NCBI GenBank assembly: GCA_902587295.1
Contig: CACIKS010000001.1
Span: forward strand, 1-53,663
Reading direction: 5' to 3'
From: an uncultured Pelagibacteraceae bacterium
GTDB taxonomy: Bacteria; Pseudomonadota; Alphaproteobacteria; Pelagibacterales; Pelagibacteraceae
DNA: 53,663 bases
The notes beneath the pieces are model-generated. The model was given only the letters and a program-made list of their open reading frames with translations, did no database searches and was not told the DNA's origin. Within the stretch, counting starts at the first letter, position 1. Each line of letters begins with the position of its first letter. A program made the position numbers and the translations under genes. Shown piece after piece: positions 45,628 through 51,541 of this stretch.

Positions 45628-47310
45628 ATGAAATTATCAGAAATAAATAGTCTAGTTGAGTTATATTTTAAAAAATCCAAAGAAGTGGACGGTAAGAAAC
45701 CATTTTTAAAATGGCTAAAACCGAATAAACCAACTTATAATTGGGAGAGTATTACGGCAAGTATTTATAAACTTTCGTTTAAAATTAAATCTTTAATAGA
45801 CGAAGGAGATAGATGTTTAATTTTATCAGAAAACAGACCTTATTGGTTGATTTCTGATATTGCTATTATGAATGCTGGAGGGATATCGGTTCCAATATTT
45901 ACAACTTATTCATCAAATGACTATGAATATATTTTAAATGATTGCAAACCGTCATTGATCATTGTTTCAAATGAAACTCAATTCAAAAAAATAAAAAAAT
46001 ATATTAATAACGAAACTCAAAAGATTATATCTTTTGAAAAAATTGAGTCAGAAAGCTTATTAATAAGCGATATATTAAATGAGAAAAATTTTGAAAAAAA
46101 TATAAATAAAAATTTAAAAAGAAATATGCCAGCTTGTATAATTTATACGTCTGGCACGTCCGGCAACCCAAAAGGAGTAATTCTGAGTCACGGAGGTATT
46201 TTAGCAAATTGTGAAGGTGCTGAGGAGTTACTTAATCCATTAGTTAAAAAAAAGGAGCCAATATTTTTAACTTGGCTACCTCTTTCACATTCATATGAAC
46301 ATGCTGTACAATTTATCCAAATTTTACTTGGAGCCAAAGTTTTTTATGCAGAGAATCTAGACAAACTAATATCTAACATGTCTGTTGCAAAACCGACAAT
46401 TATGACTGCAGTACCGAGATTTTATCAGAATTTATTTAATAAAATTAATGCTAATTTAAATAAACAAAAGGGTATAAAAAAAGTATTAATAAATAAAACA
46501 ATAGAACTAGGTAAAAAAATACTAAAAAAACAAGATTTAAGATTCTATGAAAAAATAATAAATTTCTTTTGCCACTATCTAGTAAGAAAAAAAATCCAAA
46601 AACAATTTGGTGGTAATTTGCAAGCATTTGTATCCGGTGGTGGCGCATTAGATAAAAATGTTGGAGAATTTTTAAATGCGGTAGGATTACCAACTTTACA
46701 GGGCTATGGGTTAACAGAAACATCACCTGTAGTAAGCTGTAACTTACCCGGCAATATTAAAGTTGAAACTGTTGGTCCTCCTTTTAAAACTAATCAAGTA
46801 AAGATTGCAGATGATGGGGAAATTTTAGTTAAAGGAGAAAATGTTATGATTGGCTACTGGAATAAAAAAGACGAAACAAATGAAATTTTAAAAGAAGGTT
46901 GGTTACATACAGGAGATATTGGAGAAATAGATGCGAATGGTTATTTAAAAATTACTGATAGAAAAAAAGATATAATCGTAAATCACGGAGGAGACAATAT
47001 TTCTCCAAGTAAAATTGAAAATCACGTTTGTAATAATGAAAAAATAAAACAATGTTTAGTTTATGGAGATAAAAAAAATTATCTTGTAGCTATATTAGTG
47101 GTAGAAAAAGAAAATAAAAATGATTCAACCATAAGAAGTATTATTGAAAATTTAAATAAAGATTTATCAATCATAGAAAAAATAAAAAAATTTAAACTAA
47201 TAGAAGAAGAATTTACAATTGAAAATGGATTGATGACGCCGACTTTAAAATTAAAAAGAAAAAAAATTGTAGAAAAATATAAACAAGATTTAGAAAATCT
47301 TTATAAATAA
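45628..47310 (+). CDS. AMP-dependent long-chain acyl-CoA synthetase
   Basis: The 560-residue protein belongs to the acyl-adenylate superfamily: fatty acid plus ATP plus CoA gives acyl-CoA. The AMP-binding motif IIYTSGTSGNPKGVILSH lies near 171-188, QGYGLTETSP near 355-364, GWLHTGDIGEIDANGYL near 425-441 and DRKKDIIVNHGG near 445-456. It fits the long-chain fatty acid ligase group; chain length is not determined. The ATG follows tRNA-Leu after four A residues, leaving no room for a leader unless the ribosome uses unprocessed RNA. Confidence 0.92.
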   Translation: MKLSEINSLVELYFKKSKEVDGKKPFLKWLKPNKPTYNWESITASIYKLSFKIKSLIDEGDRCLILSENRPYWLISDIAIMNAGGISVPIFTTYSSNDYEYILNDCKPSLIIVSNETQFKKIKKYINNETQKIISFEKIESESLLISDILNEKNFEKNINKNLKRNMPACIIYTSGTSGNPKGVILSHGGILANCEGAEELLNPLVKKKEPIFLTWLPLSHSYEHAVQFIQILLGAKVFYAENLDKLISNMSVAKPTIMTAVPRFYQNLFNKINANLNKQKGIKKVLINKTIELGKKILKKQDLRFYEKIINFFCHYLVRKKIQKQFGGNLQAFVSGGGALDKNVGEFLNAVGLPTLQGYGLTETSPVVSCNLPGNIKVETVGPPFKTNQVKIADDGEILVKGENVMIGYWNKKDETNEILKEGWLHTGDIGEIDANGYLKITDRKKDIIVNHGGDNISPSKIENHVCNNEKIKQCLVYGDKKNYLVAILVVEKENKNDSTIRSIIENLNKDLSIIEKIKKFKLIEEEFTIENGLMTPTLKLKRKKIVEKYKQDLENLYK

Positions 47311-47439: not shown

Positions 47440-47467
47440 TTGACATCTATCCAAAAAAACTTAAAGA
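47440..47467 (+). promoter_or_regulatory. Candidate promoter of the 23-residue basic peptide gene
   Basis: A perfect TTGACA (47440-47445) is followed after 16 bases by TAAAGA (47462-47467), within the 208-base gap after the acyl-CoA synthetase. The rest of that gap (from 47311) is AT-rich and holds no other recognisable feature. Transcription would begin about 45 bases before the small ORF. Confidence 0.45.
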
Positions 47468-47518
47468 TCAAACTACTTAACGAATCACTTCGATTTGTTT
47501 AAAAAAAGGGAGATAAAG

Positions 47519-47590
47519 ATGGCTAAAAGACGTAAAAAGAAAAAAGGAAAAAAGAAGAAGGCTAAAAAAAGAAGAAGAAGAAGAAGATAA
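47519..47590 (+). CDS. 23-residue Lys/Arg micro-protein
   Basis: An ATG at 47519, preceded by an AGGGAG ribosome binding site (47508-47513), opens a 23-codon frame. Apart from the initiator it contains only Lys, Arg, two Ala and one Gly, beginning MAKRRKKKKG and ending in six tandem AGA arginine codons and TAA. A strong terminator follows 14 bases later. The net charge is about +20, which would suit nucleic-acid or ribosome binding, as in histone-like or small ribosome-associated peptides. I do not recognise a family. The polypurine tract might instead be part of a small RNA. Confidence 0.65.
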   Translation: MAKRRKKKKGKKKKAKKRRRRRR

Positions 47591-47602
47591 GTATTTTTCT
47601 CT

Positions 47603-47645
47603 AAAAACGCCCTTCACAGATCTCACGTGAAGGGCGTTTTTTTTC
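47603..47645. terminator. Strong bidirectional intrinsic terminator
   Basis: A 13-14 base-pair hairpin has arms AACGCCCTTCAC and GTGAAGGGCGTT around AGATCTCAC. It is flanked by eight or more T residues on the plus side and by five on the minus side. It ends the basic-peptide transcript and, read in reverse, the carD transcript, whose stop codon begins within a few bases of it. It is by far the strongest terminator in the window. Confidence 0.92.
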
Positions 47646-48304
47646 TAAGTTTCCAAAGACTTTTCCTCTCTACCAAGCGCTTTATTCATCTTCTTTTTAA
47701 CATCTTCATCATTAATTTTGAGTACTACCTTAAATTCACTTTCTAATCTGTCATATGCTTTTTCAAATAGCTGCCTCTCACTGTAAGATTGATCTGCTAT
47801 GGTATTTGTGTTTTTATTAAGATCTCTAACAACTTCAGCAAGCTCATAGATTTTTCCTGAGTTTATTTTTTGTTCATACTCTTGGGCTCTTCTACTCCAC
47901 ATTGTTCTTTTTACTTTTGGTTTACTTTTTAAAATAGATACACACTTATTTACTTGATGTGCCGAGCTAACACGTCTCAAGCTAGATTGTTGATTAATAG
48001 GTATGGTTAAAGTCAATTTATCTTTTTCGATAAGTACTTTATAAAAATTAATATCTATGTCTCCTATAACTGCTTTTTCAACCGACATTATTTTTCCAAC
48101 TCCATGTTTAGGATAGACGACATAATCATTAGTATTGTAGATTTTTTTTTCAGTTGGTTGCTTTTTAATTTTCTTTATTTCAATCTTTTCTTCTAAATTA
48201 CTTGTTTTTTGAACAGCCTTAACTTTTTTGTCTGTTTTATTTTTTTTTAATTTAATTTTCAAATCCTTAATTTTTTTCGGTTTTTTAATTTTTTTCCTGC
48301 CCAT
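47645..48304 (-). CDS. carD: CarD-family transcription regulator
   Basis: CarD proteins bind the RNA polymerase beta subunit and stabilise open promoter complexes. The 219-residue chain has an unusual N-terminal extension of about 57 residues, very rich in Lys. The CarD/TRCF Tudor-like domain starts at NDYVVYPKHGVGKI near 59-72. The helical DNA-interaction region includes MWSRRAQEYEQKINSG near 136-151 and LAEVVRDL near 156-163. It follows fdxA by two bases, the usual alphaproteobacterial pairing. Confidence 0.93.
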   Translation of the reverse strand: MGRKKIKKPKKIKDLKIKLKKNKTDKKVKAVQKTSNLEEKIEIKKIKKQPTEKKIYNTNDYVVYPKHGVGKIMSVEKAVIGDIDINFYKVLIEKDKLTLTIPINQQSSLRRVSSAHQVNKCVSILKSKPKVKRTMWSRRAQEYEQKINSGKIYELAEVVRDLNKNTNTIADQSYSERQLFEKAYDRLESEFKVVLKINDEDVKKKMNKALGREEKSLET

Positions 48305-48306
48305 TT

Positions 48307-48648
48307 TTATCCCCCTGGTTTTTCTGAAAAGTACTTATCGTATTTATTTTTTTCACTTTTGTATTTCTCCGCATCTTTTGGCGGCTCTTTTTTTTTGGTT
48401 ATGTTGGGCCATAGTTTTGAATATTTATTATTTATTTTTAACCATTTATTTTTGTCCTCCTGATCATATGCTGCATCTGATACTATCGCATCTACAGGAC
48501 ACTCAGGTTCGCAAACACCACAATCTATACATTCATCAGGATCGATTACTAACATATTTTCCCCTTCATAGAAACAGTCAACGGGGCAAACTTCAACACA
48601 GTCCATTAGCTTGCATTTTATACATTCATCTTTAACTAAGTATGTCAT
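48307..48648 (-). CDS. fdxA: 7Fe-8S-type ferredoxin FdxA
   Basis: A 113-residue ferredoxin that starts [20 protein letters not shown]. Its first motif [17 protein letters not shown] carries ligands of the [3Fe-4S]/[4Fe-4S] pair. The second, [15 protein letters not shown] near 40-54, holds a full [4Fe-4S] set. The C-terminal extension with a KLWPNIT segment near 77-83 is typical of alphaproteobacterial FdxA. Its electron partners are unknown. It overlaps the TerB-like gene by four bases. Confidence 0.95.
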
Positions 48649-49082
48649 AAATTTTTTCTTTTTATAATATTAGATTTTATCTCTCCACTTAATTTATCTG
48701 GTACATATAATAACCCGCAAAGTCTTCTCATTAAATTGTTTTCATAAATATCTGATTTATTATCTGACAAAATTATTTCCCACAAAAATTCTAAAACTAA
48801 TTTTTTTTTGTTCATATCCATCTTTTTTACTTCTCGAGTATATTCTAAAATTTGATTAGAATTATTTTCATACTCTTCAGCTTTTTTAAGAAGATTTAAC
48901 ATTTCTGTATCTGTCATTTCTTTTGAAGATTTTTTAATAAAATTTAATATTATTTTTTTTTCATCTTCAGAATATTTTTCGTCAATTTTTGCCGCATGGA
49001 TTAATAAAGATAGCATTTTTACTAGATCATCGTTTTTATAGCTTGTATCATTGTTTTTTTTATTTATTAAATCAAAAATCAT
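48645..49082 (-). CDS. TerB-like helical protein
   Basis: A 145-residue all-helical protein. [23 protein letters not shown] near 26-48 is the acidic, metal-binding-like motif of the TerB/DjlA N-terminal fold. A second similar segment, [22 protein letters not shown], lies near 98-119. The family is also called tellurite resistance TerB, but no ter genes are present and tellurite resistance should not be inferred. It is inserted by four-base overlaps between the SUV3-like helicase and fdxA. Confidence 0.8.
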
Positions 49083-51541
49083 TTTAAATTTAAAGACATT
49101 AGTTTTTGAAATGGAGAATCTTTTTTATAAACATATTTAGATTTATTATTATATTTTTTTGCTCCTTTATAAAAAAACATATCTTCTTTTTCTTTTTTGT
49201 AATTCATTAAAGCCATAAGAACAAAAAAATTTTCCTTTGAACAACCTAATAAATTCATCATCTCAGAGTCTGTTTGAAATTTACCACTTTTTGTTTTTTC
49301 AATAATTTTTAAAAAAAGTTTCTCTAAAATATCTACTCTAACATAGAAGTCTTTAAATTTTTCAAAACCACATAAAAGCAAAAATTTATTATTAAATTTT
49401 TTATCATTATCAACTAAAAAATTTAGACCGGATTTTGGTATTTCATTTCTTTCTGAAATATCATTATAAAATTTCCATAATAAAATTCTTAATTGCACTG
49501 CTTTAGGTTTTAACATTTTTGGAAGAAATATATGATATCTACCAATTTTTATTCCTAAATTTCTAAACTGTTTTCTTTCTTCCTTAGTGATTTTTTTTAC
49601 AATATCTTCCACTTCAATTCTTTTTAAAATTCCATTATTTTCGTAAAGTCTAAATGCTAATGCCCTTAAGTAATTATTTTTGTTTTTAAGTTTTGTCAAA
49701 TTTATCAAATCATTTAGTTCTTCAGCTATAAAATTCTTAAGCCAAATATTTAAAAAATCTAAAAGTTCTTCTTTAGTCGATAAATCAATTGCATCGTCAG
49801 AGATAACTTCAATTTCTGGAAATAGGTAATTTTTTCCTTTTTTAATTTTGGCTACAGGATTATTTTTCCAATAAATCTTGTAATCATCTTTAATTTCAAC
49901 CTCCTTTTTACTGATAATATTTCTTACTCTATTTACTAGCTCTTCAGCAATTCCTTGTCTCGCAGCTTTTTTTAATGATTTAATATCAGTTTCTAATGTG
50001 CCTGAAGTGAATTCTAAATTAAGCTTAAGTCCCTTTAATTTTCCGATTAGTTGATCATTTATTATGACTTCATTTTTTTCAGTTATATTGGTTTTTAAAT
50101 TTATATCTTGCTTTAGACCTCGAGACAAAACACTAATTCGTTTATCAATAAAACTTTTTGTTAATTCATTGTGTAATTTATCAGATAAACTATCTTCAAT
50201 ATTTTTACTCATTTGTATCCAGTAATCTGAATTTTCAACCCAATTTTTTTTATTGGATACATAGGACCAGGTTCTAACATTAGAGATTTTATTCGATATC
50301 ATATCAATACTTCCTTTATAATCATATAAACCCTTCAACTGATTTTTCATATAATCATTTGGTATTTTACTTTTTTTAGAGTTAAGAAAATTAAAAACTT
50401 TTGTCACTACGTCAATATGCGTAAACGCTTTTTTTTGAAAATCAGGTATTTGACAACATTCCCAGAGAAGCGAAAGCTTTTCATTCGAAAACTTTATTTT
50501 CTTATCACGCACAAGGTATTTTAGTACATTTTCATCAAGAGATTCGGAAATTTTATTAAATTTTTTACTTTGTGGTTTTTTTTCTAATGATTTAATTAAT
50601 AACTCTGGACTTTTGAAGTTGAAATCTGAGTTTCTCCAAAATAAAAACTTTATATCATCCAATTTATGATTTTCTATCTTTTCAATTTCGTCCGGCATAA
50701 TATTTTCACATGCACCAGTGACACCAAACATACCGTTAGTTTTGTATCTTCCAGCCCTCCCAGCAATTTGCGAAATTTCAGTTGTTCTAAGTCTTCTTGT
50801 TTTTTTTCCATCAAATTTCATTAAATTAGAAAAACTTATTTGTTCAATATCCATATTTAATCCCATACCTATTGCATCTGTAGCTACCAAATAGTCAACA
50901 TCACCAGACTGATAAACATCAACTTGCGAATTTCTCGTTTTTGGACTTAACGATCCCATAACGACAGCAGCTCCGCCTTTTTGTCTTCTTACCAGTTCTG
51001 CAATTGCGTAAACTTCTTCAATCGAAAAGGCAATTAGCGCAGTTTTTCTATCTAATCTAGAAATTTTTTTTTGTCCATTATACTTTAATTGAGAAAATCT
51101 TTTTTGTTCTATGAATTTTGTTTCAGGCACTATCTCAGATATAATATTTTTCATAATTTGTGATCCTAAAAACATTGTTAAAACCTCGCCTCTAAAATTA
51201 AGAAGTCTATCAGTAAAAATATGACCTCTCTCTCTATCACCGCACATTTGTATTTCGTCAACAGCAATAAAATCAACTACTTTGTCCTTTGGCATTGCTT
51301 CAACTGTGCAAATAAAATATTGAGCTGAGTTGGGTACAATTTTTTCCTCTCCGGTAATTAGTGATACTTTATCTGCACCAACCTTTGAAACACATTTATC
51401 GTACACCTCTCTTGCTAAGAGTCTTAATGGGAGTCCAAAAATACCTGTGTTATGTTCTAACATTTTTTCGATTGCCAAATGGGTCTTCCCAGTATTTGTT
51501 GGACCTAATACCGCAAGAATTTTATTTAAGGGAGAATTCAT
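49079..51541 (-). CDS. SUV3-like DEAD/DEAH RNA helicase
   Basis: The 820-residue protein opens with helicase motif I GPTNTGKTHLAIEKM near 13-27, then GLPLRLLAREVYDKC near 35-49. The DEAD-type box is VDEIQMCGDRERGH near 93-106. ATDAIGMGLNMDIEQISF near 218-235 and SQIAGRAGRYKTNGMFGVTG near 252-271 are motifs V and VI, and match mitochondrial SUV3. SUV3 acts with an exoribonuclease in RNA degradation; the bacterial partner is not known from this locus. The Lys-rich C-terminal half is less conserved. Confidence 0.88.
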   Translation of the reverse strand: MNSPLNKILAVLGPTNTGKTHLAIEKMLEHNTGIFGLPLRLLAREVYDKCVSKVGADKVSLITGEEKIVPNSAQYFICTVEAMPKDKVVDFIAVDEIQMCGDRERGHIFTDRLLNFRGEVLTMFLGSQIMKNIISEIVPETKFIEQKRFSQLKYNGQKKISRLDRKTALIAFSIEEVYAIAELVRRQKGGAAVVMGSLSPKTRNSQVDVYQSGDVDYLVATDAIGMGLNMDIEQISFSNLMKFDGKKTRRLRTTEISQIAGRAGRYKTNGMFGVTGACENIMPDEIEKIENHKLDDIKFLFWRNSDFNFKSPELLIKSLEKKPQSKKFNKISESLDENVLKYLVRDKKIKFSNEKLSLLWECCQIPDFQKKAFTHIDVVTKVFNFLNSKKSKIPNDYMKNQLKGLYDYKGSIDMISNKISNVRTWSYVSNKKNWVENSDYWIQMSKNIEDSLSDKLHNELTKSFIDKRISVLSRGLKQDINLKTNITEKNEVIINDQLIGKLKGLKLNLEFTSGTLETDIKSLKKAARQGIAEELVNRVRNIISKKEVEIKDDYKIYWKNNPVAKIKKGKNYLFPEIEVISDDAIDLSTKEELLDFLNIWLKNFIAEELNDLINLTKLKNKNNYLRALAFRLYENNGILKRIEVEDIVKKITKEERKQFRNLGIKIGRYHIFLPKMLKPKAVQLRILLWKFYNDISERNEIPKSGLNFLVDNDKKFNNKFLLLCGFEKFKDFYVRVDILEKLFLKIIEKTKSGKFQTDSEMMNLLGCSKENFFVLMALMNYKKEKEDMFFYKGAKKYNNKSKYVYKKDSPFQKLMSLNLK

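Follow-up and report, generated by a model that had tools for sequence, protein, structure and literature searches.

A conserved Lys/Arg micro-protein gene beside carD in SAR11 bacteria, putatively the short extreme of a histone H1/Hc2-like protein series

Protamines are short proteins of extreme charge density whose arginine clusters are expected to act by charge-neutralising packing, and eL41 and bTHX are polypeptides of about 25 mostly basic residues. Chains of the Hc2 type are lysine-rich and of low complexity, with Ala/Pro/Thr spacers and a length that varies with the number of in-frame repeats (PMC2848022), while the KPAA-repeat C-terminal domains of the AlgP/PhaF type are disordered lysine-rich tails that bind DNA (PMC9239181). 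Here we compare these systems with a SAR11 micro-protein encoded beside carD. Protamines are sperm proteins without homology to this bacterial micro-protein, and the AlgP/PhaF domains are tails of larger proteins, whereas the SAR11 product is a free peptide. Its versions in the sister family f2 and in genus g12 are similar in composition and repeats to the Hc2/BpH1 type (HctB of Chlamydia, BpH1 of Bordetella). In contrast to Hc2, with 165–237 aa, the version in the window (the whole stretch of 53,663 nucleotides that was analysed, from an uncultured Pelagibacteraceae bacterium) has 23 aa, no Pro and one-third Arg, and its gene is convergent with carD. The f2 and g12 forms look like bacterial H1/Hc2-like proteins, a likeness of composition and repeats. 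Neither long nor short versions matched Pfam, NCBIfam or PHROGs, where HMMER bias filters may hide matches, and a PDB sequence search, which handles low-complexity sequence poorly, gave no match to a solved structure. Since no curated family matches, we do not file the protein as an H1/Hc2 family member, only as one that would work like it. The candidate structured RNAs of Pelagibacter (Meyer et al. 2009, PMC2704228) are likewise conserved SAR11 intergenic elements; the text of that paper is without carD, histones or acyl-CoA, and no flanking gene in its table matches the locus. No SAR11 histone-like micro-protein was described in the literature searched, and the available part of the Red Sea TSS paper makes no mention of the micro-protein. 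The 19–24 aa form and its HU-shared leader thus appear undescribed in the searched literature, and the long relatives resemble known H1-like proteins.

The locus in the window comprises the following features:

45628 to 47310, plus strand: AMP-binding (acyl-CoA synthetase-like) gene, 5′ of the micro-protein gene
47440 to 47445, plus strand: −35 element TTGACA, conserved order-wide
47462 to 47468, plus strand: candidate −10 region TAAAGAT, assigned by inspection, degenerate across genera and weak alone
47480 to 47498, plus strand: 5′ leader hairpin ACGAATC-ACTTC-GATTTGT, conserved, with compensatory pair changes in related genera
47508 to 47512, plus strand: ribosome binding site GGGAG, 6 bases 5′ of the ATG; GGRG in 111/111 loci
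47519 to 47590, plus strand: micro-protein gene, ATG at 47519, TAA at 47588 to 47590, product MAKRRKKKKGKKKKAKKRRRRRR
47603 to 47645, both strands: bidirectional intrinsic terminator of the micro-protein gene and the convergent carD, dG −23, z −6.4
47645 to 48304, minus strand: carD, convergent with the micro-protein gene, with CarD_TRCF_RID and CarD_C domains

The initial annotation had described a frame of 23 codons, nearly all Lys and Arg and ending in six AGA codons, and this description was borne out, with the coordinates and the GGGAG site now located. K or R occupies 19 of the 23 residues, the remainder including two Ala and one Gly, and six AGA codons stand at the 3′ end. The same annotation had taken the AGA run for a length-variable microsatellite; it does vary, only modestly, between about three and six terminal Arg codons. 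The gap from the AMP-binding gene to the micro-protein gene is usually ∼190–300 nt in Pelagibacteraceae.

To assess conservation, carD was taken as an unbiased anchor, and loci with an intact 3′ flank were counted in both the family and its sister family. In 111/111 of these SAR11 loci, a homologous frame, small and basic, stands beside carD, and every recovered carD locus of the window's own genus has a homologous 20–23 aa frame in the same place. The set contains 82 distinct ORF sequences, all with lengths that are a multiple of three and without any frame break, and nearest-pair comparison of these ORFs gave a pN of 0.042 versus a pS of 0.167 (pN/pS 0.25). Genera g6 and g13, traced via the leader motif, show the same pattern, and each SAR11 genus sampled has the frame in this one position wherever the locus is intact. 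The start MAKRRKK occurs in 192 of 397 family genomes compared with one match for the reversed control, although a minority of these matches fall at the beginning of an unrelated, longer protein. Beside carD, the basic frame was absent from 48 diverse Alphaproteobacteria loci and from 70 non-SAR11 GTDB alphaproteobacterial loci. The selection proposed earlier is therefore upheld by the 111 loci and the pN/pS of 0.25: the suggested search of SAR11 genomes between the acyl-CoA synthetase gene and carD recovered the frame with codon-level conservation, and loci that keep the RNA but lose the frame, named then as grounds for refutation, are the opposite of the outcome, the reading frame being retained. 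On these sequence grounds the micro-protein gene is a real, conserved coding frame, and it is probably translated. SAR11 bacteria rank with the most numerous cells on the planet. Their AT-rich genomes are highly streamlined, and any gene that the whole clade retains is therefore likely to matter; a micro-protein of nitrogen-rich Lys and Arg is, moreover, expensive to make where nutrients in the water are scarce.

Several genomes deserve separate mention. In the MAG G035 (L388/L365, outside the 111-locus set), an extra A in an A8 run shifts the last codons, through an assembly error or as genuine variation. Five genomes of 92–98% estimated completeness (G046, G147, G189, G086 and G019) have neither carD nor the micro-protein locus; this joint absence suggests a recurrent assembly gap or linked loss, and genomes without both are uninformative on conservation of the frame. 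One short contig (L147 of G057) carries two oppositely oriented copies of the micro-protein start region, at 2065 and 5482, probably as an assembly palindrome. Viral carriage was considered and rejected, as four viral contigs match the start motif yet encode unrelated longer proteins.

Ordering the orthologues on the CarD tree revealed a graded series in length and charge. In f2, they are proteins of 40–99 aa built of KKAAPKKKKKAAK repeats (e.g. MEELKVIFAKARKKAKKKAAPKKKRKAAKRKPAKKK...), and the f1 genera g7, g9, g12 and g5 have KKAPAKK-type forms of 29–58 aa (e.g. MAKKRKKAAKKKAPAKKKKVAKKRKPAAKKK...), those of g12 being AAKKKAPAKK forms of 34–58 aa. Orthologues of g3 measure 21–35 aa, and those of g8, g2, g1 and g4 only 19–24 aa. 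From long to short forms, net charge climbs from 0.56 to 0.83 per residue and the share of Arg from 8 to 33%, while Ala and Pro drop. The f2 and g12 orthologues are Lys-rich with Ala/Pro/Thr spacers (K 0.51–0.55, A 0.24, P 0.05–0.07), and their repeat copy number varies in frame, giving 40, 60 and 76–99 aa in f2 and 34–58 aa in g12; the window member, at 23 aa, is too short for repeats to show. The sister-family N-terminus MEELKVIFAKA is unlike that of the micro-protein, and the putative link between the f2 protein and the micro-protein rests on position, leader and the graded series, without statistical alignment. We infer that a histone H1/Hc2-like protein reaches its reduced end in the window gene, so that the free-standing micro-protein of the initial annotation gives way to the short end of an H1-like series. 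Shrinkage is the direction of change if f2 resembles the ancestor; the reverse, expansion within f2, is possible.

The region upstream of the frame has a constant layout as well. A candidate promoter had been proposed there, and TTGACA, conserved order-wide, sustains it, even though a simple promoter scan of the window did not list the site. The earlier view of this region overlooked a conserved element of TTGAC, CGAATC and a hairpin, and with it the connection to HU described below. TTGAC followed after 33–38 nt by CGAATC is present in all 109 loci with enough upstream sequence, and the TTGAC spacing places CGAATC at or a few nt after the expected 5′ end of the transcript. CGAATC opens or adjoins the hairpin, whose 3′ arm and stem register vary among genera. 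In g5, g7, g9 and g12, six sequences have UA at one hairpin pair and four have AU, a count from only ten sequences of four genera; 1/500 shuffles equalled the covariation score. Candidates for pairing with the SD are CUCC in g7, g9 and g12 and CCUC/CCC in f2. Rfam covariance models gave no match at the micro-protein locus, the whole window yielding only a tRNA.

Downstream, no other terminator-like site of the window, on either strand, is as strong as the hairpin at 47603 (arms 47603–47617/47627–47641 followed by a T-run, dG −23 kcal/mol, z −6.4). The strongest terminator had been placed here from the letters alone, although its distance from the stop codon is 12 nt and not 14. Its minus-strand side ends in T5, 3 nt past the carD stop. 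With T-runs on both sides and a right arm 3 nt from that stop, the terminator is common to the two convergent genes; of the dedicated transcript postulated before, the separate promoter stands, and the separate terminator does not. The relatives compared have an equivalent hairpin 3′ of the micro-protein frame. Many f2 loci (L198–L211) carry a second hairpin, AGCATTGATTAATCAATGCT with a T-run, between the ORF stop and the common terminator.

The leader connects the micro-protein gene with hup, the gene for HU. In 19 of 20 genomes, TTGACN{34,37}CGAATCA has one match per genome at the micro-protein gene, and the only two extra matches in the 20 genomes both lie before hup in the sister family. 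The pattern of ACGAATC followed by an HU start was found in 32/41 sister-family genomes, 2/2 of g5 and 1/3 of g12, with 0 matches in the control of 118 genomes. The −35/ACGAATC leader is thus common to the two genes in f2, g5 and g12, and the proteins are without evident sequence similarity. A second element, ACTCC...GGRG, with a predicted ability to pair with the ribosome site, also recurs in both the HU leader of f2 (...ACTCCTAAAAAAGGGGG) and the micro-protein leader of g12 (...ACTCCAAACTAAAAAGGAG). ACGAATC of the HU gene is lost or altered in the genome of the window itself and in g3, g4 and g9. The HU promoter of g1, g3, g4 and g8 (L250–L262), from which ACGAATC is gone, retains a −35 of the TTGATTT type. 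A wide ACGAATC regulon was rejected, since TTGAN{34,37}ACGAATC gave 12 matches in 7 genomes versus 11 for the reversed control; 8 of the 12 sit before the micro-protein gene or HU. Together, the leader comparison suggests that the micro-protein and HU were ancestrally under joint control.

We considered several other explanations for the locus. A frame arising by chance in A-rich DNA has practically no probability: the genome is A-rich and AAA and AGA are the main Lys and Arg codons of the gene, but among window ATG frames of 20–60 aa only this one has K+R of at least 0.5, none of 60 simulated 53.7-kb sequences (order-3 Markov) reached K+R 0.6 or anything comparable, and the frame is present at all orthologous loci, so that conservation and simulation already rule chance out. 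The short transcript with its conserved promoter, 5′ hairpin and terminator, and the pairing of CUCC with the ribosome site in some genera, would suit a regulatory small RNA with an incidental frame. This reading, or that of a leader peptide, is nevertheless very improbable, because the drift is synonymous and ORF lengths are always a multiple of three; frame conservation rules out an RNA that is non-coding only. A leader peptide is contradicted by the terminator and then convergent carD in every orthologous locus, and a stalling leader was rightly discounted at the outset, the gene past the terminator lying on the opposite strand.

Two further alternatives accept the peptide and assign it another partner. 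It is unlikely that the micro-protein is ribosome-associated and plugs into rRNA in the manner of eL41 or bTHX. Size, composition, strong ribosome site and universal conservation all fit such a role, and these proteins are similar to it in size and basicity; in contrast to them, the micro-protein has repeat-length variation and an HU-like leader. The change in repeat number from 40 to 99 aa in f2 and the drift to pure K/R misfit a structured site, the HU leader has no counterpart seen at ribosomal genes, and phmmer against all PDB chains returned nothing at E ≤ 10, a test limited by low complexity. It is just as unlikely that the peptide, as a granule organiser or RNA chaperone, has a different polyanion (polyphosphate, mRNA or nascent RNA) for its main partner. 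A charge-only peptide is not bound to select DNA, the H1-like AlgP organises polyP granules (PMC9239181), and Hc2 is an RNA-binding protein that represses translation (PMC2848022), whereas the leader common to HU indicates chromosome biology. That this promoter and leader are common to HU and to almost nothing else is our main ground for favouring the nucleoid over the ribosome or polyphosphate as the place of action.

We therefore favour, with reasonable though not full confidence, a nucleoid-associated, protamine-like micro-protein that is the short extreme of a lysine-rich histone H1/Hc2-like protein beside carD. Its own mRNA would be short and probably stable, with a conserved −35, a 5′ hairpin, a strong ribosome site and a bidirectional terminator. 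The ∼19–20 positive charges on 23 disordered residues would neutralise and bridge DNA backbones non-specifically, and the polycation would compact DNA alongside HU, the gene for which would ancestrally have had the same promoter and leader (TTGA(C), 33–38 nt, ACGAATC and, in certain lineages, a CUCC able to pair with the SD); this leader may formerly have coupled the levels of the two proteins. We infer from sequence that the peptide is made, its abundance, its binding and compaction of DNA, and a regulatory role for the leader; nucleic acid binding is likely, and a chain of only 23 residues may not compact DNA stably. A bolder proposal, which we regard as tentative and rather doubtful, is that a protamine-like peptide of 19–24 residues packages part of the SAR11 DNA, having shrunk stepwise from an H1-like repeat protein, and that an undescribed promoter/5′-leader RNA element common to it and HU enables the cell to balance the two. 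If true, the peptide would rank with the smallest bacterial nucleoid proteins. Confirmation would provide a chromosome-packing protein smaller than the usual gene-calling size limit, a rare series from a histone-like protein down to a bare charge peptide, and a gene-specific leader connecting the micro-protein with HU that is directly testable.

Finally, some neighbouring sequences are also of note. The RID domain of CarD is preceded by a lysine-rich N-terminal extension of ∼55 residues (48140–48304, minus strand), and in g3 and f2 relatives the carD open frames reach ∼280–325 aa, where the extension may be longer. Minus-strand genes for a ferredoxin, a TerB-domain protein and a Suv3-like helicase lie 5′ of carD (48307–51541). 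The SAR11 loci L107, L119, L120, L123, L125, L126, L128, L129 and L161–L163 encode a different protein of at least 300 aa with a polybasic N-terminal extension (MAKRSKKKKHKKKGKKSLRKKK...), after which the sequence resembles, by eye, the start of acetyl-CoA synthetase.
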